From Candidatus Gastranaerophilales bacterium (GTDB lineage: Bacteria; Cyanobacteriota; Vampirovibrionia; Gastranaerophilales; Gastranaerophilaceae), in assembly GCA_944322725.1 (NCBI GenBank), contig CALUPU010000003.1:62001-126000 (forward strand): a DNA stretch of 64,000 nucleotides. Direction: 5' to 3'. Position numbers and translations under genes: made by a program. Each line of letters starts with the position of its first letter. Positions within the stretch are counted from its first letter, which is position 1. The notes beneath the pieces are model-generated. The model was not told where the DNA came from. It made no database searches and saw only the letters and a list, made by a program, of their open reading frames with translations. This document shows, in pieces, positions 3,720 through 33,005 of the stretch.

Positions 3720-4775
3720 ATGTTCTACGACACTTACAGCACAAGTTTTCAAAGTTTAATGAAGCCAATGTATAATGTTCAGGCAAATTACAATGCTTAT
3801 GCAAACAATTTAGGCTCATATGGAATGAACGGTATGTACGGCATGGGAATGGGTTATATGAGCCCGATGATGAATGTTGGTGTCGGTCAATTCAATGCAG
3901 ACTATCTTGTTAAAAATGATGACAGAAACAATAACTATTATACAAGACCTGTAGCAGCACATGTTCATAAAGACGAAACACCGACAATACTAGGCATTCT
4001 TGCTACAGCACTCGGTACAGCAGCATTAATTGCAGGTCTTGCCAAAGGCAGAGGCAGAGGTTTCAGAAGACCAACACCTGGACCAACACCTGGACCAACT
4101 CCTGGACCAACACCTGGACCAACTCCTGGACCAACTCCTGGACCAACACCTGGACCAACACCTGGACCAACTCCTGGACCAACTCCTATAACAGACCCTA
4201 CAAGATTGCTACCTGAGTCTTCAGGTAAAGTATATGCTCGCAAGTGGAATCCTCGTAAAGAACAAATAATTACCCCTAGTAGAGATATTATTGACAATAC
4301 GAACTACAATAATTTACACAGACCAGGTACAATGTTCGGAAATGTAAACAATCCAATATCAGACCCTACAAGATTGTTACCTGAACATGAGTCTCAAATA
4401 AGAGGGTTGTTAAATCCACATAATAGCCAAATAAAAGGTTATTTGGCAGACCCTACAGGCAGATATTTACCTGTACATGTAGCAACTAACAAGACAAATT
4501 TAAAACCAATATCAGAATATTTGCCAAAACCTGAAAATAAATACAATCTTTCTGGTGGTATAAAAGGTTTCTTGCCTGCACATAATGAAAATGTTGCAAA
4601 CCCGCTACAAGCAGTAAATCAAAACTTATCAACAATAAGACCAGACTTGATGAGACATGGCGAAGTAGTATATACAACTCATACAAATGAAAGCATTTCG
4701 TCCGCTAACAGCATTGGTGCAAATGCAAAAGGCGCAGACAAACTCGCTGAATTGCTCAAACAAATGCAGGGTTAA
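3720..4775 (+). CDS. Gly/Met-rich protein with PTPG minisatellite, unknown function
   Basis: 351 residues, no recognised family. In order: an N-terminal Tyr/Asn/Gly/Met-rich region (NGMYGMGMGYMSPMM); a single hydrophobic segment around residues 81-101 (ILGILATALGTAALIAGL) ending in a basic GRGRGFRR patch; ten PTPG-type repeats (residues about 118-156); and a C-terminal region in which DPTRLLPE or a close variant occurs three times. No cleavable signal peptide is evident. The start is supported by GGAGATTAGGTT just upstream, and a TATAAA lies about 40 bases further up. A hairpin terminator follows. A membrane-anchored protein with a stiff proline spacer is plausible but unproven. Confidence 0.75.
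   Translation: MFYDTYSTSFQSLMKPMYNVQANYNAYANNLGSYGMNGMYGMGMGYMSPMMNVGVGQFNADYLVKNDDRNNNYYTRPVAAHVHKDETPTILGILATALGTAALIAGLAKGRGRGFRRPTPGPTPGPTPGPTPGPTPGPTPGPTPGPTPGPTPGPTPITDPTRLLPESSGKVYARKWNPRKEQIITPSRDIIDNTNYNNLHRPGTMFGNVNNPISDPTRLLPEHESQIRGLLNPHNSQIKGYLADPTGRYLPVHVATNKTNLKPISEYLPKPENKYNLSGGIKGFLPAHNENVANPLQAVNQNLSTIRPDLMRHGEVVYTTHTNESISSANSIGANAKGADKLAELLKQMQG
4071..4187 (+). repeat. 12-bp minisatellite encoding PTPG x10
   Basis: Nine full tandem copies of CCAACWCCTGGA plus a final CCAACTCCT. The only variable base is A or T in the second Thr codon (ACA/ACT), and both versions are intermixed. The unit is 12 bases, so gain or loss of copies keeps the reading frame. Confidence 0.95.
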
Positions 4776-4863: not shown

Positions 4864-4894
4864 CCCGCAACGTATAGTGCTGCGGGATTTTTTT
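4864..4894 (+). terminator. Rho-independent terminator
   Basis: CCCGCA and TGCGGG arms enclose an 11-base loop and are followed by ATTTTTTT. It ends the PTPG-repeat gene; the T-tract touches the stop codon of the convergent gene. Confidence 0.8.
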
Positions 4895-5855
4895 ATGCAG
4901 ACGGTTGTTTTTGTGTATTTTTTCGGGATTCCACTTTTGCACTAATATAGTTTGCAAGAGGTGTTGCAAAAACAGGTGAAATAAATCTGTAAATCAGAGC
5001 AAATACCATCAATGCCTGTGCTGTTTTAAAGCCGTTCATCATTCCCGAGAGTCTACCACTTTTATCAGCATTCGCCAATTTTTTGATTGCATTGTTCATA
5101 AGTTCTCTGTTATATGCTGCCTGCATAGCTTTGCTGTTTTTCATTTTTTCTAGATAAAGAGCTTTTACAATTTCACCTTTATCTTTACCTTTTTCAACAA
5201 CAATATTTTTAATTTCCTTTAAGAAATTACGTGCTACAGAATCATCTTTATGTTTTTTGATTTCTTCTTTTAAATAAACCGGAACTTTTTCAGAATAATC
5301 AAACATTTTATCGAGTGATTCCATTATTGCCTTTAAGCCGGGTTTGATTTCTGCAGTACGTCTTACTACATTAATATATTCAGGATTTGTTTTATATTTT
5401 AAAAATTTTGTCTGTAGATTTTTATCCTCAATCTTAGAGATATGGAAAAGTTCAGCAAGATGATTAATTTTTCTGTTTAAATAATGATTTAAAGTATAAG
5501 CACCTGCCGTGGACAAACCGCAGACAATAGCCTGATTTGTAATCAAAGGCATTTTTTGATCTTTTTCAATTGTCTTGGATCTTGCTGTATCAAGCATATA
5601 AAATCCTGACAAAGTACATCCCACAAAAGCAGCCAGGTGTTCCTGATAATTTTTATTTTTCAGCCAGTCAACGAGATTTTGTACAGGTTTCCAGGAAGCG
5701 ACCTTTCCAAGCCCAAGTCCGATATAGCTTGTTGAACGGTCGCCGGCTCGTTTTACACCGCTTGCAATCTTTTTAAGAGAACCGGCATTATATGCTTTAA
5801 ATGAATAACGTTTATTTTGTGAAGGGGTATACGGATTAAAACCTGTTATCTGCAT
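4893..5855 (-). CDS. Lineage-specific membrane protein, C-terminal-half paralogue
   Basis: 320 residues of unknown function. It starts MQITGFNPYTP and carries RYSFKAY near residues 16-22. Hydrophobic stretches lie around residues 75-90 (FVGCTLSGFYML), 105-125 and near the C-terminus (ALMVFALIYRFISPVFATPLA). The block ARSKTIEKDQKMP-(I/L)-xNQ is nearly identical to the C-terminal half of the fused protein at 31779-33005, and the ending YRF-(I/V)-(S/G)-PV also matches. Its ATG overlaps the TAA of the upstream gene in TAATG, with GGGGGAT as ribosome-binding site, so the two are probably translationally coupled. Compared with the fused protein it has about 100 extra residues between the second and last hydrophobic segments. 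Confidence 0.85.
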   Translation of the reverse strand: MQITGFNPYTPSQNKRYSFKAYNAGSLKKIASGVKRAGDRSTSYIGLGLGKVASWKPVQNLVDWLKNKNYQEHLAAFVGCTLSGFYMLDTARSKTIEKDQKMPLITNQAIVCGLSTAGAYTLNHYLNRKINHLAELFHISKIEDKNLQTKFLKYKTNPEYINVVRRTAEIKPGLKAIMESLDKMFDYSEKVPVYLKEEIKKHKDDSVARNFLKEIKNIVVEKGKDKGEIVKALYLEKMKNSKAMQAAYNRELMNNAIKKLANADKSGRLSGMMNGFKTAQALMVFALIYRFISPVFATPLANYISAKVESRKNTQKQPSA

Positions 5856-6652
5856 TATTTTATCCCCCCTGTAAAGTTTTGAAATGTCTTGCTTGCGTTG
5901 TTTTTAAAGTTGATTACAGAATATCTGTAAACCGGATTCTGCAGGTCTTTTTTCACATCTGTATTTTGCTTTGTGCCGAATATTTTGCTGAGCAGATATT
6001 TATCAATAAAAGGTATCATACCGATAGTAACTGCTGAACGAACACTGGCTGTCATAACTTCTGCTGATTTATTAACAAGCATTGTAAAAGTTTGTGCATT
6101 CTTCTTGGATTTCAAAAACTTCTCAGCCTGTCTTGCAAACACAGCAGGATGGCTTTTAACTTTATTTAAGCCTGTTTTGATAGGAGAGAATAAAGCTATA
6201 GCAAATACATATCCGATTATACCCGATGATATCGAATGAGAAGCAGCTTTTTTATTCTTCTCTCTGTTATTATCATTAGATTGAGCCATAATAGCAGCAG
6301 GTCTGAGTATACAGGTCAAAAGTATAGCAAAGATTGCATCAAAAATTGTCTGGCTCACATTAGCCATATTTATGAATTTGTTAACATATTTGTTATTTAA
6401 AAATTTCCATAAATTAGAATTCTTGACCTTTTGTACTTCTGATAAAGAAAGACCGCCAAATGAAATATCATTGACGGTCTTTTTATTATAATTATTGAAA
6501 TTAGAAATCTTAATAGACTTAGAGTTAGAAAACTCATGAGACATGTCTTTAACAGACGAATGAAGGGAAAAATAATCGGCATGCCCGTAGCCTGATGTTT
6601 TATTTGCGGGCGCAGGAATCATATTTACCTTTGTAGTTTGTAAAATTTGCAT
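5855..6652 (-). CDS. Lineage-specific membrane protein, N-terminal-half paralogue
   Basis: 265 residues, unknown function. The first 60 residues are polar, with an ISFGG motif at about 63-67. Hydrophobic stretches follow around residues 105-125 (ILLTCILRPAAIMA), 140-160 (SSGIIGYVFAIALF) and 205-220 (VRSAVTIGMIPFI). The segment ILRPA-(A/S)-I and the later HSxS-(S/T)-G are shared with the N-terminal half of the fused protein at 31779-33005. It is first in a two-gene operon with the 4893-5855 gene. TTTACAAACTT lies 46 bases upstream of the start, as in the promoter of the fused paralogue. A membrane role is likely; the function is unknown. Confidence 0.85.
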   Translation of the reverse strand: MQILQTTKVNMIPAPANKTSGYGHADYFSLHSSVKDMSHEFSNSKSIKISNFNNYNKKTVNDISFGGLSLSEVQKVKNSNLWKFLNNKYVNKFINMANVSQTIFDAIFAILLTCILRPAAIMAQSNDNNREKNKKAASHSISSGIIGYVFAIALFSPIKTGLNKVKSHPAVFARQAEKFLKSKKNAQTFTMLVNKSAEVMTASVRSAVTIGMIPFIDKYLLSKIFGTKQNTDVKKDLQNPVYRYSVINFKNNASKTFQNFTGGIK

Positions 6653-6841: not shown

Positions 6842-7885
6842 CTATGGAGTTAATAAAACTTTTATTGCCTCGCCTCGTTCATGAGCCAGTATTGCTTCTT
6901 TAGCCTCTGATAGGGGCATTCTTTTTGTAATAAGTTTTGTAACATCCACATGCCCGTCTGCTATCAAATCAAGAGCCTGTCTAAAATACTGCGGTGTATG
7001 GTGGAAAACACTTATAATCTGAACTTCATCGTAATGCAGGCGTCTTGTATCAAGATTAACAGAAGTTCCGGACTTACAGCCGCCAAACAGATGAACTTTA
7101 CCGCCTTTTCTCACAAGAGAAAACATCTTTTCCCATACCTCGGGAAGTCCTACACACTCAACCGCAACATCCAGTCCTCTGCCGTCTTGCGTAAAGGATT
7201 TAAAGATTTTATCAGGGTGTTGATACTTTTTCAAGTCCACAACCTCATCGGCATGTGCAAAATCCTTTGCAAGCTGTAATTTTAAAGGATTTCTGCCCGC
7301 AGCAATAACTTTAGCACCTTTTAATTTTGCAAGTCGTGCAAACATCAGCCCGATAGGACCTATACCGTATACGCCGACTGTATCGCCAGGTTGAATACCT
7401 GTGCGCTCCACGCCGTGAACAACATTAGCCAGAGGTTCGGCAAAAGCAGCCTTTTCAAAACTTAATCCCGTCGGTATTTTTAAAAGATTTTTTTCCACAA
7501 TTCGTTCCGGAACGGTAATATATTCAGCATAGGCACCGTTTAATAAATCCAAATTCTCGCACAGATTATACTGCTTTTTCAGACAGTAAAAGCACTTGCC
7601 GCAAGGTGCGGAATTTGCGGCAACAACCCTGTCTCCGGGCTTAAAATCAACCACTTTGTCTCCGACTTTTTCAATAATACCGGCAAACTCATGCCCGAAA
7701 CCCGAAGGTGTATGCTTTATCAAAACAGGATGACCGCGTCTAAAAGTTTTTACGTCAGTACCACAGGTCAAAGCAGCCTGTATACGGACAACAACTTCTT
7801 TATCAGACGGTTCTTTTACTTCTACTTCCTCATATCTGATATCTTGAGGAGCATAGTATCTTATAGCTTTCATTTTCTTTTTCAT
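6842..7885 (-). CDS. Zinc-dependent medium-chain alcohol/polyol dehydrogenase
   Basis: 347 residues of the MDR superfamily. Catalytic-zinc region: CGTDVKTFRRG followed by GHEFAGIIEKVGDKV. Structural-zinc lobe: CGKCFYCLKKQYNLC (four Cys). NAD(P)-binding Rossmann motif: GVYGIGPIGLMFARLAK. The closest relatives by pattern are sorbitol/threonine dehydrogenase-like enzymes; the substrate cannot be read from sequence. It starts only 2 bases after the stop of the upstream dehydrogenase, so the two are co-transcribed. A second possible start (ATGAAAGC at 7873) is four codons inside. Confidence 0.88.
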   Translation of the reverse strand: MKKKMKAIRYYAPQDIRYEEVEVKEPSDKEVVVRIQAALTCGTDVKTFRRGHPVLIKHTPSGFGHEFAGIIEKVGDKVVDFKPGDRVVAANSAPCGKCFYCLKKQYNLCENLDLLNGAYAEYITVPERIVEKNLLKIPTGLSFEKAAFAEPLANVVHGVERTGIQPGDTVGVYGIGPIGLMFARLAKLKGAKVIAAGRNPLKLQLAKDFAHADEVVDLKKYQHPDKIFKSFTQDGRGLDVAVECVGLPEVWEKMFSLVRKGGKVHLFGGCKSGTSVNLDTRRLHYDEVQIISVFHHTPQYFRQALDLIADGHVDVTKLITKRMPLSEAKEAILAHERGEAIKVLLTP

Positions 7886-7887
7886 TA

Positions 7888-8913
7888 TTAATTATCTATT
7901 TTTATGTACGCCTTAAGTGTTTTATTTTCAACAGTATCCTGTATAGCCTCGGCAAGTTCTTCCAGAGGGTAAGATGTCGAAAGATATTTCACAACAACTT
8001 TTTTCTTTGAAAGGAGTTTATGAGCAAGAGCAAGATCCATTGGCGAAGGAGAATAGCTGCCCATAACTTTTAATTCTCTATAGTAGATATCATTATTTGT
8101 ATACCCTGCTGTATCATTAGGCACAGAAGAAAATACAAGAATAGTACCGCCATCTCGAACTGCTTTAATCGCAAATTCAATAGCTTTATCAGAACCGGAG
8201 GTCATAAATACGACATCTGCCCCTAATCCACATGTCATTTCTTTTACCTTTGCAGATGTTTCATCGTTATCTTCAAATCTTATAGAAGCATCAAAGTTAA
8301 GATTGTTAGCAAGAGCAACCCTCTCCTCTATCAAATCACAGCCTATAACGTCTCCTTTAAAAGCCTTTACTGCCTGCCCCATTAACAGCCCTATTGAGCC
8401 AAGACCTATAACCAAGGAAGTCGTTCCTTTTTGGACTTCGGCTCTTTCCACAGCTCTGATACAGCACGCAAGGGGTTCCATAAAAGATATTTCCATATCA
8501 TCAAGATTTTTTGGAACTTTAAAAACAGTATTTTTCAAATGCAAAGGCGAAACATAAATATATTCGGCAAAACCTCCAGGGAAGATATTGGTTTCTTTAA
8601 ACTGCCTGCACATTGAATAGTTTTTATTCAAACAGTAATCGCACTTCATGCAGGGAACATGATGCCCAAGCACAACTTTATCTCCTGTTTTGAATTTTGA
8701 AAATAAAGACGGTTTAATTTCAACTATTTCACCCACTACCTCATGTCCGAGCACTTTTTCGTTTCCGTCATGGATAAATTTAACAATATCCGACCCGCAT
8801 AAACCGCACCCGAGGACTTTTACAATAGCACCCTTATTGTTAAAATCGCATAACTGAGGATGTGGTCTGTCTTGTATGGTAATTTTTTGATTTTGTGCAA
8901 CTGCTGTTCTCAT
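7888..8913 (-). CDS. Zinc-dependent medium-chain dehydrogenase (first of a pair)
   Basis: 341 residues. Catalytic zinc: CGLCGSDIVKF and GHEVVGEIVEI. Structural zinc: CMKCDYCLNKNYSMC. Cofactor site: VIGLGSIGLLMGQAVK, with an acidic residue at the end of the second strand (GCDLIEER) suggesting NAD rather than NADP. It is only distantly similar to its downstream neighbour, so the pair is an old duplication or two independent MDR enzymes acting in one pathway. It is divergent from the Fe-S protein gene; the 75-base gap contains both promoters. TTTACATT lies 26 bases upstream of the start on its strand. Confidence 0.88.
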   Translation of the reverse strand: MRTAVAQNQKITIQDRPHPQLCDFNNKGAIVKVLGCGLCGSDIVKFIHDGNEKVLGHEVVGEIVEIKPSLFSKFKTGDKVVLGHHVPCMKCDYCLNKNYSMCRQFKETNIFPGGFAEYIYVSPLHLKNTVFKVPKNLDDMEISFMEPLACCIRAVERAEVQKGTTSLVIGLGSIGLLMGQAVKAFKGDVIGCDLIEERVALANNLNFDASIRFEDNDETSAKVKEMTCGLGADVVFMTSGSDKAIEFAIKAVRDGGTILVFSSVPNDTAGYTNNDIYYRELKVMGSYSPSPMDLALAHKLLSKKKVVVKYLSTSYPLEELAEAIQDTVENKTLKAYIKIDN

Positions 8914-8988: not shown

Positions 8989-10206
8989 ATGAAAAAGTTA
9001 AAAGAGTATGAAGAAGAAGTATATAAGTGTTCCCGCTGCGGATTATGCCAGTCCGTATGTCCTGTTTACAAAGCATCATTAAATGAGTGTGCGGTATCAC
9101 GCGGAAAATTCAATATTTTAAACGGCATAATTAAAGGTGAACTCTCTTTTACAAAACGGGTAAAAACATATCTTGACCTGTGTACGGGATGCAATGCCTG
9201 TAAAGATTTCTGTCCGAGCAATATTAACGCCAAAGAAATATTTACCGCAGCAAAAGCGGAATACTATAATATCTGCAAAATCTCTTTTACAGAAAGAATT
9301 TTAAATTCTTACACCCTTTTCAAGCTGTTACTACTCTGTGCAAGAATCGGTTTAAGACTCTGCCGTTTGTTTAAACTTGATAAGGTTGTTAAATATTTTG
9401 AAAAATATTTGATTAAAACAGGATACATCGGCAAAAGAATTGTTTTGTTTAATTCGCTTGCAATAAAGCACTTCAAGCCGGGATATAAAAAGAATGAAGG
9501 TAAAAAGGCGAAGACAGCAATTTATTTTGAAGGCTGCTTTAATAAATATATTAATTCCGAGACTAAAGATGCAGTTGTACAAATACTGGCGGATTCTGAT
9601 ATTGAATTTGTAACAAAAAACTTTGAATGCTGCGGAGTAAGCTACCTCAATGACGGCAACCTCAAAAAATTTACCGCATTAATAAATAAAAATATAAAAC
9701 AGCTTAACACGGATTTTGATTATATAGTTACAGACTGCGCCTCCTGTGAAGATGTACTAAAACAATACAAAGATTACAGTAATGACAACAAATCCGCAGA
9801 ATTATCCGCAAAAACAATAAGTATCACAGAATTATTAAAAAGCGTGAAATTTAAAACGTTAAAACCGCTAAAAGTCTCAGTACACAAGCCCTGCCATGAC
9901 AGTTATGATTTTATTGAAATAGTCAAAAATATTGAAGGTATAAAGTTTATCCAAACAGAAGATTTTGATAAATGCTGCGGTTTTTCAGGTAAGTTTGCAT
10001 TACAAAATCAGGAAATTTCAAGAGAAATTTCCAAGCAAAAAGCACAAAACTATATTAACTCCGCTACAGACTTTATAATCACAACCTGCCCAGCATGCCT
10101 GCTGGGATTAAATCAAGGGCTTGCTGAAATTTCATGTAACAATAAGCCGTCAGCAATTAACCTATTCGTTTTTATTGCAAAATATTGCCGGCCTGTAAAA
10201 GATTAG
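8989..10206 (+). CDS. Fe-S oxidoreductase with CCG domains (GlcF/heterodisulfide reductase-like)
   Basis: 405 residues from ATG 8989; an in-frame GTG at 8971 would add six residues, but the -10 element overlaps it. Two 4Fe-4S motifs near the N-terminus: CSRCGLCQSVCP and CTGCNACKDFCP. Two CCG-type cysteine-rich domains follow: FECCGVSYL with an upstream GCF, and KPCHDSYDF...KCCGFSGKFAL. This order matches the iron-sulfur subunit of glycolate oxidase and related lactate or heterodisulfide reductase subunits. Such proteins pass electrons from an FAD partner to quinone or another carrier. No FAD subunit (GlcD/GlcE type) is in the window, so the electron donor is unknown. It converges on the next gene with a 4-base stop-codon overlap. 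Confidence 0.85.
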   Translation: MKKLKEYEEEVYKCSRCGLCQSVCPVYKASLNECAVSRGKFNILNGIIKGELSFTKRVKTYLDLCTGCNACKDFCPSNINAKEIFTAAKAEYYNICKISFTERILNSYTLFKLLLLCARIGLRLCRLFKLDKVVKYFEKYLIKTGYIGKRIVLFNSLAIKHFKPGYKKNEGKKAKTAIYFEGCFNKYINSETKDAVVQILADSDIEFVTKNFECCGVSYLNDGNLKKFTALINKNIKQLNTDFDYIVTDCASCEDVLKQYKDYSNDNKSAELSAKTISITELLKSVKFKTLKPLKVSVHKPCHDSYDFIEIVKNIEGIKFIQTEDFDKCCGFSGKFALQNQEISREISKQKAQNYINSATDFIITTCPACLLGLNQGLAEISCNNKPSAINLFVFIAKYCRPVKD

Positions 10207-10448
10207 GGACGACCTCTTTTAATCGTATTAACTATACCAAGAGCCAGTGCAGATGCGACAAGTCCGATTACAGGCCATGTATATGAAGGCTTGTGTTCTG
10301 TTGTCAAATAGCCGTAAGTTTTTGCTATATGGGGACGCTGCGTGTCATAACAATAACTTGCTATATCTCTTGTAACCGGTGTTGCACCCACAGCATTCGC
10401 CGGATAACCTGCATAAGGAACCTGAGATGAATTAATTCCGTTAACCAT
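10203..10448 (-). CDS. Small tail-anchored-like membrane protein
   Basis: 81 residues, unknown family. A polar, Tyr/Pro-containing N-terminal two-thirds is followed by one hydrophobic segment (WPVIGLVASALALGIV, about residues 58-73) and a basic tail NTIKRGRP. This organisation resembles the segment-plus-KRGR arrangement in the proteins at 3720-4775 and 19957-20919. AAGG lies 11 bases before the ATG. The stop codon is interlocked with that of the convergent Fe-S gene (TTAG). Its real expression is likely but unproven. Confidence 0.6.
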   Translation of the reverse strand: MVNGINSSQVPYAGYPANAVGATPVTRDIASYCYDTQRPHIAKTYGYLTTEHKPSYTWPVIGLVASALALGIVNTIKRGRP

Positions 10449-10593: not shown

Positions 10594-11337
10594 ATGAAAA
10601 AGAATGATAAATCACTTGCTTTTACACTTGCGGAAACACTGCTTACACTGGTTATTGCCGGTGTAGTAATGGCTGTTATGATGAGGGCTATTAACAGAAT
10701 AAGCCCGGATCAGGAAAAATTGATGTTTATAAAAACATACCATGCTCTGGAAACAGCAATGGCTAACACTGTTAATGATCCGACAAAATATGACCCGACC
10801 TATTATTCAGACAATGAAGTCGATAATATGACACAGGATGAAAAAAACGGTCTTCACAGAGATTTCAGAGACCTGCCAATCCCTCCTTCAAAAGTTGAAT
10901 TTATTGACTCTCAGGGTAAAACCAAAACTGCATGCGTTCCATATAAAGATAACGAAGGCAAAGATGTAAAATGTGACGAAGAAATTACAAAAGAAAATGC
11001 TATATGTTACTTTATGTCTGATCAGTTGAACACAAACGGCGAAGTCAACTGTAAAAATAATGATGGTATAACTTTTAACGGAGGAAAACAAACCGGCATA
11101 AATATGAGACTATCAAACGGTTCCTGTATTGCATATCTGCAGGGCGGAACAAATAGTGATGGTTTTTATAGTTTCAGCATCTCTCCGCAATGCAACAATG
11201 ATACAAAAACAGGACTATATGCGGTATTTATATCAGCCGACGGTAAATTAACCGTACCAAAAACAAATGATAACATAGGTGCTAATCAGGAAAAAGCCTA
11301 TTCCTGGATGGAAGATCAGACTAATATAAGAAAATAA
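10594..11337 (+). CDS. Type IV prepilin-like (pseudopilin) protein 1
   Basis: 247 residues. The N-terminus is a class III signal: MKKNDKSLA, then FTLAETLLTLVIAGVVMAVM, with Glu at position +5 after the predicted cleavage site. The residue before cleavage is Ala rather than the usual Gly, which prepilin peptidase tolerates in some substrates. The C-terminal domain holds at least six Cys (including AC-V, KC-DE, ICYF, NCK, SCIAY, PQC), suggesting disulfides outside the membrane. A promoter (TATAAT) and AGGAGTAT precede the start. The next gene is a clear paralogue 17 bases downstream. No pilus assembly genes are in the window. Confidence 0.85.
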   Translation: MKKNDKSLAFTLAETLLTLVIAGVVMAVMMRAINRISPDQEKLMFIKTYHALETAMANTVNDPTKYDPTYYSDNEVDNMTQDEKNGLHRDFRDLPIPPSKVEFIDSQGKTKTACVPYKDNEGKDVKCDEEITKENAICYFMSDQLNTNGEVNCKNNDGITFNGGKQTGINMRLSNGSCIAYLQGGTNSDGFYSFSISPQCNNDTKTGLYAVFISADGKLTVPKTNDNIGANQEKAYSWMEDQTNIRK

Positions 11338-11354
11338 TTACGGAGCCATTATTA

Positions 11355-12059
11355 ATGAAAAAAAGCAATAATAATAAATGTGGTTTTACTCTTGCCGAAG
11401 TTTTGCTTGTTATGGCAATCGCAGGTGTAATAATGGCTATTCTTATAAGAATTATTAACCGTGTTGACCCGGATAAAGATAAATTCTTATTTTTAAAATC
11501 ATATAATGCTGTAGAAGCAATAGTAAGTTCATCAATTAATGACGGATACAAATACGACCAGAACATATACAACAATCTGGAAACAGGAAGTCAGGAAGAA
11601 CTGCATATTGATTTTTCCGATGCACCTTTAGACACAGCCAAGGTTGTATATACTGATGTTAATGATAAAGGAGAACCTGTACAAAAAACAGCATGCCCGA
11701 AAAAAGCAGGCGGAGATTTAAGCTGTGATAAGGAACTAACACAAACAAATGCTTTGTGTTACTATCTGGCAGAACAGATAAATACAATAGGACCTGTTAA
11801 CTGTTCAGGCATTGCTGCTGTTGGTGAACCTAACTTTAAATCAACACTCGGTGTATGCTTTTTTGACTGGGACAAAGCAAAAAGCAACGGCGAATATACA
11901 GGAATAATAGATCCGTCATGTACGGTTAGAGAAAACGGATATGCAGTAAAAGTATTCAGAAGAGGCAATGTTACTGTGCCTAAAACTTCTGATATCACAA
12001 CGGATATGCAGCCTAAAGCCGCAGAATGGATTAAAAATCCGACAAAGTTGGACGATTAG
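11355..12059 (+). CDS. Type IV prepilin-like (pseudopilin) protein 2
   Basis: 234 residues, tandem paralogue of the preceding gene. The signal is canonical: CG, then FTLAEVLLVMAIAGVIMAIL, with Glu at +5. Both proteins share INRxxPDxxK after the hydrophobic helix, LHxDFxDxP, the (I/L)CY(F/Y)(L/M)xxQ(L/I)NT block and a C-terminal VTVPKT(S/N)D. The conserved Cys pairs match those of the neighbour. GGAG precedes the ATG. Minor pilin or pseudopilin of a type IV pilus or type II secretion system is the likely class; the partner system is elsewhere. Confidence 0.87.
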   Translation: MKKSNNNKCGFTLAEVLLVMAIAGVIMAILIRIINRVDPDKDKFLFLKSYNAVEAIVSSSINDGYKYDQNIYNNLETGSQEELHIDFSDAPLDTAKVVYTDVNDKGEPVQKTACPKKAGGDLSCDKELTQTNALCYYLAEQINTIGPVNCSGIAAVGEPNFKSTLGVCFFDWDKAKSNGEYTGIIDPSCTVRENGYAVKVFRRGNVTVPKTSDITTDMQPKAAEWIKNPTKLDD

Positions 12060-30049: not shown

Positions 30050-31642
30050 ATGAAAGTATTGATTACAGATAAAATTAATGAAACTGCAAAAAATATTGTT
30101 GATGAAGCTGCACAGGGTGTAATTCTTCCGACAATGCAGGAGGATGAACTCTGCAAAGTTATAGGTGAATATGACGCATTGATGGTCAGAAGCCAGACTA
30201 AAGTAACAAAAAAAGTTATTGAAGCAGGTAAAAATCTAAAAATTATCGGCAGAGCGGGCGTAGGTGTAGATAATATTGACCTTGAAGCAGCAACGCAAAA
30301 TGGCATAATAGTTGTAAACTCTCCTGACGGAAACACAAATGCGGCAGCAGAACACACTGTAGCGTTAATGCTTGCCATGTCTCGAAATATTGCAAAAGCA
30401 GGAGAGTCGACAAAACAGGGGATGTGGGAACGCTCCAAATTTACAGGTCATGAAGTTTTTGGAAAAACTCTCGGCATAATAGGATTCGGCAAAATCGGAC
30501 ACCATGTTGCAGAAGCAGCCAAAGCAATGGGAATGAAGATTCTTATTTCTGACCCCTACACAACAAAAGAAGTTGTAGAAAAATTTGGTGCAAAATATGT
30601 TGAATCATTGGACGAACTCTGGGGACAGTGTGACTACATAACTGTTCATGTGCCAAAAACAAAAGAAACTCTTCACATGATAAATAAAGAAACTATTGCA
30701 AAAATGAAAAAAGGCGTACGCCTTATAAATTGCGCAAGAGGCGGGATTATTGATGAACAGGCTCTTGCAGAAGCGCTTGAATCAGGTCATGTTGCTCAGG
30801 CTGCTGTTGACGTATTTGAAACAGAGCCTAATATCGCAGATTCCCCGCTGGTAAAGACAACAGGAGATATTCTTTTAACTCCGCACCTCGGTGCAAGCAC
30901 GGAAGAAGCACAACTAAAAGTAGCAGAAGATGTTGCCGAACAGATAAGAGATGTATTAAAAGGAGGCTCTGCCCGTTCGGCAGTAAATATTCCGTCCTTA
31001 AAACCCGAAAAACTGGAGCCTGTAAAAGATTACATGCAGCTTGCTGAAAATATCGGCGAACTTGCAATGCAAGTATCAACAGGCAATCTAAAAGGTATCT
31101 ATGTAACTGTAAAAGGCACTCTTGCAGATTTGGATGTATCACCTCTTGAAACTGCAGTTGTAAAAGGAGTGCTGGGTTCATTTATGAACGATGTAAACTA
31201 CGTTAATGCACCGATTATTGCAAAAAACAAAGGACTTGATGTTTCCACTACAAAATCCAATACTTCAACGGACTACATCGGTTCAATTACTCTTAAACTG
31301 GTAACTGATAAAGAAACAAACTCTGTAGCAGGTGCGCTTATTGCCACAGACATGCCTAGAATAGTAAAAATTAACGGATATAATGCCAGCATTGAGCCGG
31401 AAAAACACATGATTCTCGTTCCGCATGAAAACAAACCTGCTATGGTTGCAAAAGTTGCTACTGTTCTTGGTGACAAAAACATAAATATCACCCGTATGAA
31501 CGTTGCACAAAACAGAACAGAAGCAGATAATATCTCTATTATGATTATCAACACAGACTCAAAAGTTGATGATAAAGTATTAGAAGAAATCTCGGCAATA
31601 GACGGTGTCGGTTTGGCAAAATACATAAAATTAACAGCATAA
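30050..31642 (+). CDS. serA: D-3-phosphoglycerate dehydrogenase (long form)
   Basis: 530 residues, the long form with an allosteric substrate-binding domain and a C-terminal ACT domain. It oxidises 3-phosphoglycerate, the first step of serine synthesis. Evidence: GRAGVGVDNIDL; the NAD loop GIIGFGKIGHHVA; INCARGGIIDE; the catalytic Asp/His region with TPHLGASTEEAQ; and an ACT-like tail (ILVPHENKPAMVAKVA). TATAAT lies about 35 bases upstream and TAGGGGT precedes the ATG. Serine feedback through the ACT domain is typical of the family. Confidence 0.96.
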   Translation: MKVLITDKINETAKNIVDEAAQGVILPTMQEDELCKVIGEYDALMVRSQTKVTKKVIEAGKNLKIIGRAGVGVDNIDLEAATQNGIIVVNSPDGNTNAAAEHTVALMLAMSRNIAKAGESTKQGMWERSKFTGHEVFGKTLGIIGFGKIGHHVAEAAKAMGMKILISDPYTTKEVVEKFGAKYVESLDELWGQCDYITVHVPKTKETLHMINKETIAKMKKGVRLINCARGGIIDEQALAEALESGHVAQAAVDVFETEPNIADSPLVKTTGDILLTPHLGASTEEAQLKVAEDVAEQIRDVLKGGSARSAVNIPSLKPEKLEPVKDYMQLAENIGELAMQVSTGNLKGIYVTVKGTLADLDVSPLETAVVKGVLGSFMNDVNYVNAPIIAKNKGLDVSTTKSNTSTDYIGSITLKLVTDKETNSVAGALIATDMPRIVKINGYNASIEPEKHMILVPHENKPAMVAKVATVLGDKNINITRMNVAQNRTEADNISIMIINTDSKVDDKVLEEISAIDGVGLAKYIKLTA

Positions 31643-31778: not shown

Positions 31779-33005
31779 ATGAAAACCGAAAATCTAGCAT
31801 ACAATATTCATCCAAAACATTATTTATCTAAAAATAATAACAATAGAAATGCGAATAAAACGACCGCAGGAGTTAATCCGAGCGGTCGTTTGAGTTTTAA
31901 AGCCAATCCAATTCCTGTTGCAAAAACATTTGCTGAAAAGATGGCGGTGAATAAAGGCTTTAACAAATTTCTTGATATACTGGCTGATAACTCACTGATT
32001 GCAGACGCTCTTATTGCATTATTTCTAACTACAATTTTGCGCCCTGCATCAATATATGCCATTCCAACCAAAGATCCTGTTGAAAAGAAAAAAAACAACT
32101 ATCAGGTTGCACATTCAGTTTCTACAGGAGTATTAGGTCTGGCAACGACAATAGCAGTTGCTGAACCGATTAAACGCGGTGTAAAAAAATTAATGAACAA
32201 TCCTGAAAAATATATGAAAAATGACACTTCATATATAAAAAACAATGCAAGAGTGTTTAAAGAAACAGCAGGCAGGCTGCACCAGCCAATATTTTTACCT
32301 TTAAGAGCAGCTCTAACTATTATGATTGTTCCTCCTATTTTAAAATTGTTTGGTTTAACCAAAACGGGAAAAGTTGCTGTTTCTCCTCAGGATAAAGCAA
32401 AAATTGATTACTCATTTATGAGTTTCAAAGGTATAAAAGATAAAAAAGCCTTCAAAGGTTTTACAAATATCAGTTCTGATCAAGAAAAAACGACGAAAAA
32501 GAATGTTGCATTTAAAGGTGCAGGAAGTCTTGTTACAGAAGGCATTGCAAAAGGTGTCGGCAAAATTGCAGATACAAATGCATTCAAAAAATTCATCAAC
32601 TGGTTCAGTGAAAAGAAAAACTGGTTCCCGCACCTGATTGCTGCAGAAAGTTTATGGTTGTCAGGATTTTACATGCAGCAGACAGCCAAGTCAAAAACAA
32701 TTGAAAAAGACCAAAAATTACCAATGATTCTGAATCAGGGTATTACAGCATTGTTATGTACCTGGGGTGCTTACAAACTCGATGGAGTTATAAATAAAAA
32801 GTTAGATAAGTACAAAGAAGTATATAAAAGAATGAACCCTTCTTTAGAGAAAAAAGTTATGGACAGAAGATTAATCGGTATCAGACTTTTAGGTCCTATT
32901 GTAATCTTCACAACAATATACAGATTTGTCGGCCCAGTTATAGTTACACCGATAGCTAACAAAATCAGTGAATTGATTGAACCTCACAACAAAAAAGCCG
33001 CATAG
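31779..33005 (+). CDS. Fused, internally duplicated lineage-specific membrane protein
   Basis: 408 residues. Residues about 50-205 match the protein at 5855-6652 (TTILRPASIY, AHSVSTGVLGL, RAALTIMIVPP). Residues about 240-400 match the protein at 4893-5855 (WLSGFYMQQTAKSKTIEKDQ, YRFVGPVIVTP). Both halves share a pattern of hydrophobic helix, (D/T)xxEK, a second hydrophobic helix and a final Pro-containing hydrophobic segment, so they look like an ancient duplication. LSFKA sits at residues 38-42, and SFKG and AFKG sit at the junction, where the separate C-half protein has its own N-terminal SFKA. The role is unknown. Confidence 0.85.
   Translation: MKTENLAYNIHPKHYLSKNNNNRNANKTTAGVNPSGRLSFKANPIPVAKTFAEKMAVNKGFNKFLDILADNSLIADALIALFLTTILRPASIYAIPTKDPVEKKKNNYQVAHSVSTGVLGLATTIAVAEPIKRGVKKLMNNPEKYMKNDTSYIKNNARVFKETAGRLHQPIFLPLRAALTIMIVPPILKLFGLTKTGKVAVSPQDKAKIDYSFMSFKGIKDKKAFKGFTNISSDQEKTTKKNVAFKGAGSLVTEGIAKGVGKIADTNAFKKFINWFSEKKNWFPHLIAAESLWLSGFYMQQTAKSKTIEKDQKLPMILNQGITALLCTWGAYKLDGVINKKLDKYKEVYKRMNPSLEKKVMDRRLIGIRLLGPIVIFTTIYRFVGPVIVTPIANKISELIEPHNKKAA

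Follow-up and report, generated by a model that had tools for sequence, protein, structure and literature searches.

In the PnuC fold, two related three-helix units are combined in one protein. Other membrane transport proteins are assembled from homologous modules that can also be encoded apart: in the Fluc family, small homologous membrane modules are found as single genes, as mutually required adjacent gene pairs, or as fusions (PMC3755343), and the pairing or fusion of homologous modules is common to Fluc and SMR proteins (PMC3755343, PMC9574504). Here we describe a membrane protein family from an order of gut-associated, non-photosynthetic relatives of cyanobacteria, across which the same two halves are found apart, coupled or joined. 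Two of its members lie within one 64,000-nucleotide stretch of DNA from a Candidatus Gastranaerophilales bacterium, the whole of which is called the window below. One is a split gene pair (A and B) and the other a long fused gene (F), and the reading frames of all three are exactly where the initial annotation had placed them:

5855..6652, minus strand: gene A of the split pair, 265 aa, defined by its reading frame, its match to F residues 18-229 and the A profile
4893..5855, minus strand: gene B of the split pair, 320 aa, defined by its reading frame, its match to F from residue 246 and the B profile
5853..5857, minus strand: TAATG, in which the A stop codon overlaps the B start codon; read from the sequence and conserved in split loci
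5864..5870, minus strand: AGGGGGG, a Shine-Dalgarno-like sequence predicted to serve B, within the last A codons (Thr-Gly-Gly-Ile-Lys-stop)
6842..8913, minus strand: two zinc-type alcohol dehydrogenase-like genes (6842-7885 and 7888-8913), upstream of A and in the same direction
31779..33005, plus strand: long fused gene F, 408 aa, following serA (30050-31642)
31890..31904, plus strand: LSFKA motif ahead of the A half of F
31911..32354, plus strand: A half of F, about residues 45-192, with predicted helices at 72-93, 100-140 and 168-190
32418..32519, plus strand: linker between the halves of F, with MSFKG (32418-32432) and VAFKG (32505-32519)
32514..32987, plus strand: B half of F, about residues 246-403, with predicted helices at 282-304, 310-352 and 358-400

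Protein A consists of an N-terminal tail with an SFGG motif followed by a predicted three-helix hydrophobic module, and B of a YSFKA motif and a three-helix module that carries an insertion of about 110 residues between helices 2 and 3.

Two halves, split and fused

Both Smith-Waterman alignment and translated search bore out the proposal that A and B correspond to the N- and C-terminal halves of F, respectively, in the same order (A then B). Protein A scored 219 against F, where the best of 300 shuffles reached 66 and the best of 300 local shuffles 105; B scored 214, with corresponding maxima of 76 and 69. In a translated search of their own genome the split pair matched F with E-values of 3.6e-19 and 1.4e-21. 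The match of A is confined to the N-terminal half of F (residues 18-229) and that of B to the C-terminal half (from residue 246), and the crossed comparisons (A with the C-terminal half, B with the N-terminal half) gave only shuffle-level scores. The match of B to F falls in two pieces because of the roughly 110 extra residues in split B. As A and B are both hydrophobic and lysine-rich, they might resemble F merely by chance or composition, an explanation to which we give hardly any weight: it is refuted by the global and local shuffles and by masking, and orthologues are present in more than 100 genomes. With the TIEKDQK, ILRPA and FKG-type motifs masked, the scores were still 167 and 169 against shuffle maxima of 52-82, that is, two to three times the best shuffle, so the similarity persists outside the TIEKDQ and ILRPA blocks, to which the initial annotation had allowed that it might be limited.

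The linker of F is informative about how the two arrangements are related. On the left it can be aligned with the end of split A and on the right with the beginning of split B, so that it reads as an A tail (YSxxxFKx..KxFxxFT) followed by a B head (SFKAxxAGS). As both parts can still be recognised, the split and fused forms differ by a join at the gene boundary. Orthologues of F, 408-490 aa in length, were found in 13 further genomes. In the long fused proteins, up to four or five xFKG motifs are spread over the tails and the linker (window 32418-32519; orthologues L009-L018). We rejected FKG as a general N-terminal tag of this lineage, since proteins other than A-B have it no more often than shuffled ones (8 of 648 proteins, where shuffles gave a mean of 3.6 and a maximum of 10).

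The two halves are also related to each other: A and B are homologous by an ancient internal duplication and later diverged. When profiles were built from 115 A and 116 B sequences, they could be aligned over their full length with a score of 31.2 (P=1e-4). The controls scored lower, with a mean of 13.4 and a maximum of 19.2 for 60 profiles whose columns had been shuffled in blocks of 12, and 14.7 and 15.9 for reversed profiles. The B profile detects the A half in about 30 fused proteins, including F of the window (E=0.0034), and the A profile detects the B half in two; the register offset of these cross-half matches is always 10-13. The predicted helix order, too, is alike in both halves of F. 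The significance of the A-B homology rests on the deeper set (about 115 sequences per profile), shallow alignments of the A and B profiles being not significant (P=0.04-0.17). Having arisen in this way and then diverged, the two halves would no longer be interchangeable.

Junction, pairing rule and history of the family

The coupled junction described for the window, a TAATG overlap with an internal Shine-Dalgarno sequence, proved to be widespread. The one-base overlap is present in 36 of 45 split loci, covering 23 of 28 genera, and a Shine-Dalgarno-like sequence lies inside the last A codons in 41 of the 45. Among unrelated co-directional neighbours at the same loci the one-base overlap was seen in only 7 of 314 pairs. 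Given the conservation of junction and ribosome site and the rarity of such overlaps in unrelated pairs, the predicted translational coupling of A and B is a conserved property. Judging from the gene overlap, A and B would also share one transcript; a sigma-70 promoter scan of the window region gave no excess over shuffles (17 vs 15.8).

In every unit read, from loci of 33 genera, exactly one A is combined with exactly one B, and A comes first. The A signature (RPxxIxxxP..K) and the B signature (KSKxIExxxKxxLIxN) occur once each, in that order, and include the conserved polar motifs RPxxIxxxP and KSKxIExxxK inside the modules. This fixed order and the 1:1 gene content lend good support to the view that the A and B products belong side by side. 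One could argue that A and B have nothing in common but their operon and act independently, their overlap and fusions reflecting genome compaction; short overlaps are indeed common in compact genomes, and 200 of the 314 co-directional pairs lie close together. We consider this quite improbable, as the exact one-base overlap is found in 80 percent of A-B pairs vs 2 percent of other pairs, no unit with a single half was read in the 33 genera, fusion has been repeated and always in the same order, and the A and B halves are homologous. We favour instead the reading that A and B are two halves of one functional unit, made either as two translation-coupled chains (with the stop/start overlap and a ribosome site inside A) or as one fused chain; coupling or fusion would keep the two halves matched.

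The family is specific to one lineage. It was present in 190 of 289 genomes surveyed across the class, all 190 belonging to the window's own order, and no member was found outside the order in a sample of the whole phylum. Within the order, two genomes of family f4 and one of genus g17 in a 45-genome panel are without it, leaving 42 with the family. The earlier statement that no named family could be recognised held up: sequence comparison of A, B and F with Pfam, NCBIfam, PHROG and the PDB gave no match, and a literature search found nothing on the A-B family. Weak Pfam matches to DUF4271 and Ribonuc_L-PSP fell far below the cut-off, and the low-E PDB sequence matches were to designed helical repeats over 40 residues.

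Split and fused forms were also said to coexist in one genome. This is true of 26 of the 42 family-bearing genomes in the panel (7 have only fused and 9 only split units); what coexists, however, is not two forms of one gene, but paralogous units. The genome of the window has three, the third being a compact fused gene of 343 aa on another contig (G000:C4:98423-99448; L003:973-2004). A genome would carry two or three such units, each with its own job. In genus g16, genome G186 carries two fused units and a split pair (L110:2613-3941, L107:5149-6171), and one g16 fused unit, of 442 aa, is placed near the base of the compact class.

In a tree of the concatenated A and B modules, this compact fused class is separate from a mostly split class. 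At least 8 changes between split and fused are needed on the tree, compared with 24 or more when the labels are shuffled. F groups with its orthologues in a single clade, and the closest relatives of that clade are split (L062, then L091, L096 and L102). As this clade is nested among split loci, F is most simply derived by one fusion, a split pair being the most likely ancestor of the 408-aa protein. Over the whole tree, 9 events are needed if only fusion is allowed and 11 if only fission is.

Gene neighbourhoods and the link to pnuC

The compact class adjoins pnuC, which encodes a transporter for nicotinamide riboside, a vitamin B3 compound and NAD precursor, in 23 genera. The two genes stand nearly always head-to-head, with start codons 16-89 bases apart in most cases, and the neighbour matches TIGR01528 above cut-off. 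No NAD riboswitch or other known RNA was found in the AB/pnuC intergenic region. In genus g13 a fluoride riboswitch (RF01734; L118:4406-4481, minus strand) lies a few hundred bases from the compact AB gene.

The association extends to gene content. Among the 289 genomes, PnuC is present in 147 and a strong compact-type AB match in 149. Comparison of the two lists gave 145 genomes with both, 2 with PnuC only (G249, G263), 1-2 with AB only, and the rest with neither. AB without PnuC is found in G195 and also in G191 (another family, with a split relative), and the compact-type matches in G108 and G227 resemble the other class. AB and pnuC have been lost together inside single genera (e.g. g4, g6, g10, g11, g17, g20 and g33); in g33 one species has both genes and another has neither. 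In the 45-genome panel, the table of AB against PnuC reads 31/1/1/12 (Fisher P=6e-9, a guide only, as species are not independent). NadC, which is universal, does not follow an AB-like pattern of co-occurrence.

These counts have to be read with care, as physical linkage of AB and pnuC alone favours their loss together and members of one clade do not count as independent genomes. The genes are adjacent in 129 of 143 pairs whose positions were compared, and because they are adjacent one deletion removes both. The link to PnuC might then be that of a passenger, with two functionally unrelated genes placed on one island around a common bidirectional promoter region. We think this unlikely: in 14 of the 145 genomes, from at least four genera, the genes are apart yet both are kept, the adjacency is long-lasting and found in two families (G252 and the rest), and single survivors are very rare. 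The reading that we prefer is a functional one, in which the compact fused unit would act with PnuC in the uptake or handling of nicotinamide riboside, as a partner, an accessory or a companion transporter.

For the split pair, the surroundings vary. In 7 genera it follows nadB-nadC at a distance of 114-208 bases, and in an eighth at 2.6 kb, and this NAD context is confined to one subclade. In the window's genus and in family f3 its neighbours are two zinc-type alcohol dehydrogenases; the arrangement listed above for the window is shared by further species of its genus and by a different family (L105, L106). In others the neighbour is a glutathione synthetase-like gene. As a guess from these neighbours, the split pair and the 408-aa protein probably have a task in the area of NAD or redox metabolism.

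Three further features of the region were observed. In most species of the genus that were read, the split pair is neighboured by a gene (window 3720-4775, plus strand) for a protein with a PGPT repeat stretch and the N-terminus MxFDxYSTSFQSL. A conserved 81-aa protein with one hydrophobic segment (10203-10448, minus strand) is present throughout the genus, its gene lying between a gene for an FeS protein on one side and prepilin-like genes on the other. Finally, a tandem gene pair (10594-12059, plus strand) encodes proteins whose FTLAE-type N-termini resemble type IV prepilins, and genes like these are found again near A-B loci in other genera.

Predicted structure and comparison with known systems

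An AlphaFold2 model of F was of middling confidence (pLDDT 63, pTM 0.55). In each half, short helices are followed by a 22-residue helix, a helix of about 42 residues and a last helix; a separate model of B, although poor (pTM 0.37; low confidence), has the same helix order. Searches with Foldseek (PDB and viral structures) and VIA-align returned only generic helical matches, with E above 0.3 and Z below 6, and the GPCRs, photosystem I and ABC transporters among them were discarded as such; we draw no conclusion from the lack of a specific fold match. PnuC was absent from the listed fold matches of F, for which the model is weak. Neither A, B nor F has a Pfam or NCBIfam match to PnuC (TIGR01528), and profile comparison of A and B with PnuC of the same genomes was not significant (P=0.23 for A, P=0.02 for B). 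Nor do the sequences of A, B and F place them in the SMR or Fluc families, as none of the three reached the cut-off of any Pfam or NCBIfam profile.

Two other roles for the halves were considered. Rather than helping PnuC, they might form a transporter or channel of their own, antiparallel as in SMR or Fluc proteins, for an NAD precursor or by-product. The modules are duplicated, have an odd number of predicted hydrophobic helices and are joined without an extra helix, so the two halves would be inverted relative to one another; Fluc is, moreover, known to occur as gene pairs and fusions (PMC3755343). However, the loops are all positively charged, on both sides of the hydrophobic segments, and thus give no topology; the predicted helix 1 of each half is short and polar; and no sequence or fold match to any transporter was obtained. 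On balance we would not expect this arrangement. A role without transport, in which A and B would be hairpins embedded in the membrane and would shape it, organise it or anchor partner proteins to it, seems to us similarly doubtful. It would fit the positive charge flanking the hydrophobic segments on both sides and the FKG-bearing tails and linkers, which are long, poorly conserved and look disordered, but the compact form co-occurs strictly with a transporter gene, which points to a metabolic role, and the polar motifs within the modules (RPxxIxxxP, KSKxIExxxK) are highly conserved.

Altogether, we find it rather probable that A and B form an obligate, pseudo-dimeric membrane unit whose compact version serves nicotinamide riboside uptake. 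Each half would contribute a predicted three-helix hydrophobic module to a pseudo-dimer packed in the membrane, with a six-helix topology and a transport-related role. A broader proposal, which we offer tentatively and with less conviction, is that A-B is a new, order-wide membrane partner of PnuC, whose halves have repeatedly been joined and cut and whose units have specialised for steps of NAD precursor or redox metabolism. For an unnamed family present in most genomes sampled of a gut-associated Vampirovibrionia order, these results supply a structure in the form of duplicated halves, the rule that one A always goes with one B, whether coupled or fused, and a candidate function in NAD precursor uptake with PnuC. 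Its paired split and fused membrane proteins also make up a natural series in which the formation of internal duplications in transport-like proteins can be studied.

Among described systems, PnuC and SWEET-type transporters have two related three-helix units in common with the A-B protein, which is in addition linked to PnuC by gene position; unlike in PnuC, no central linking helix is predicted. Like Fluc (CrcB) and SMR proteins, A-B consists of two homologous modules that occur as a pair or as a fusion. It differs from them in that no sequence or fold similarity was found, in having three predicted helices per module where Fluc and SMR have four, in the strong divergence of its halves, and in the long extra tails and FKG-type motif of each half. 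As with other subunit genes found both split and fused, gene fusion is a sign that the products act together; in the A-B family, however, split and fused paralogues persist within single genomes through most of an order, with at least 8 conversions between the two states.
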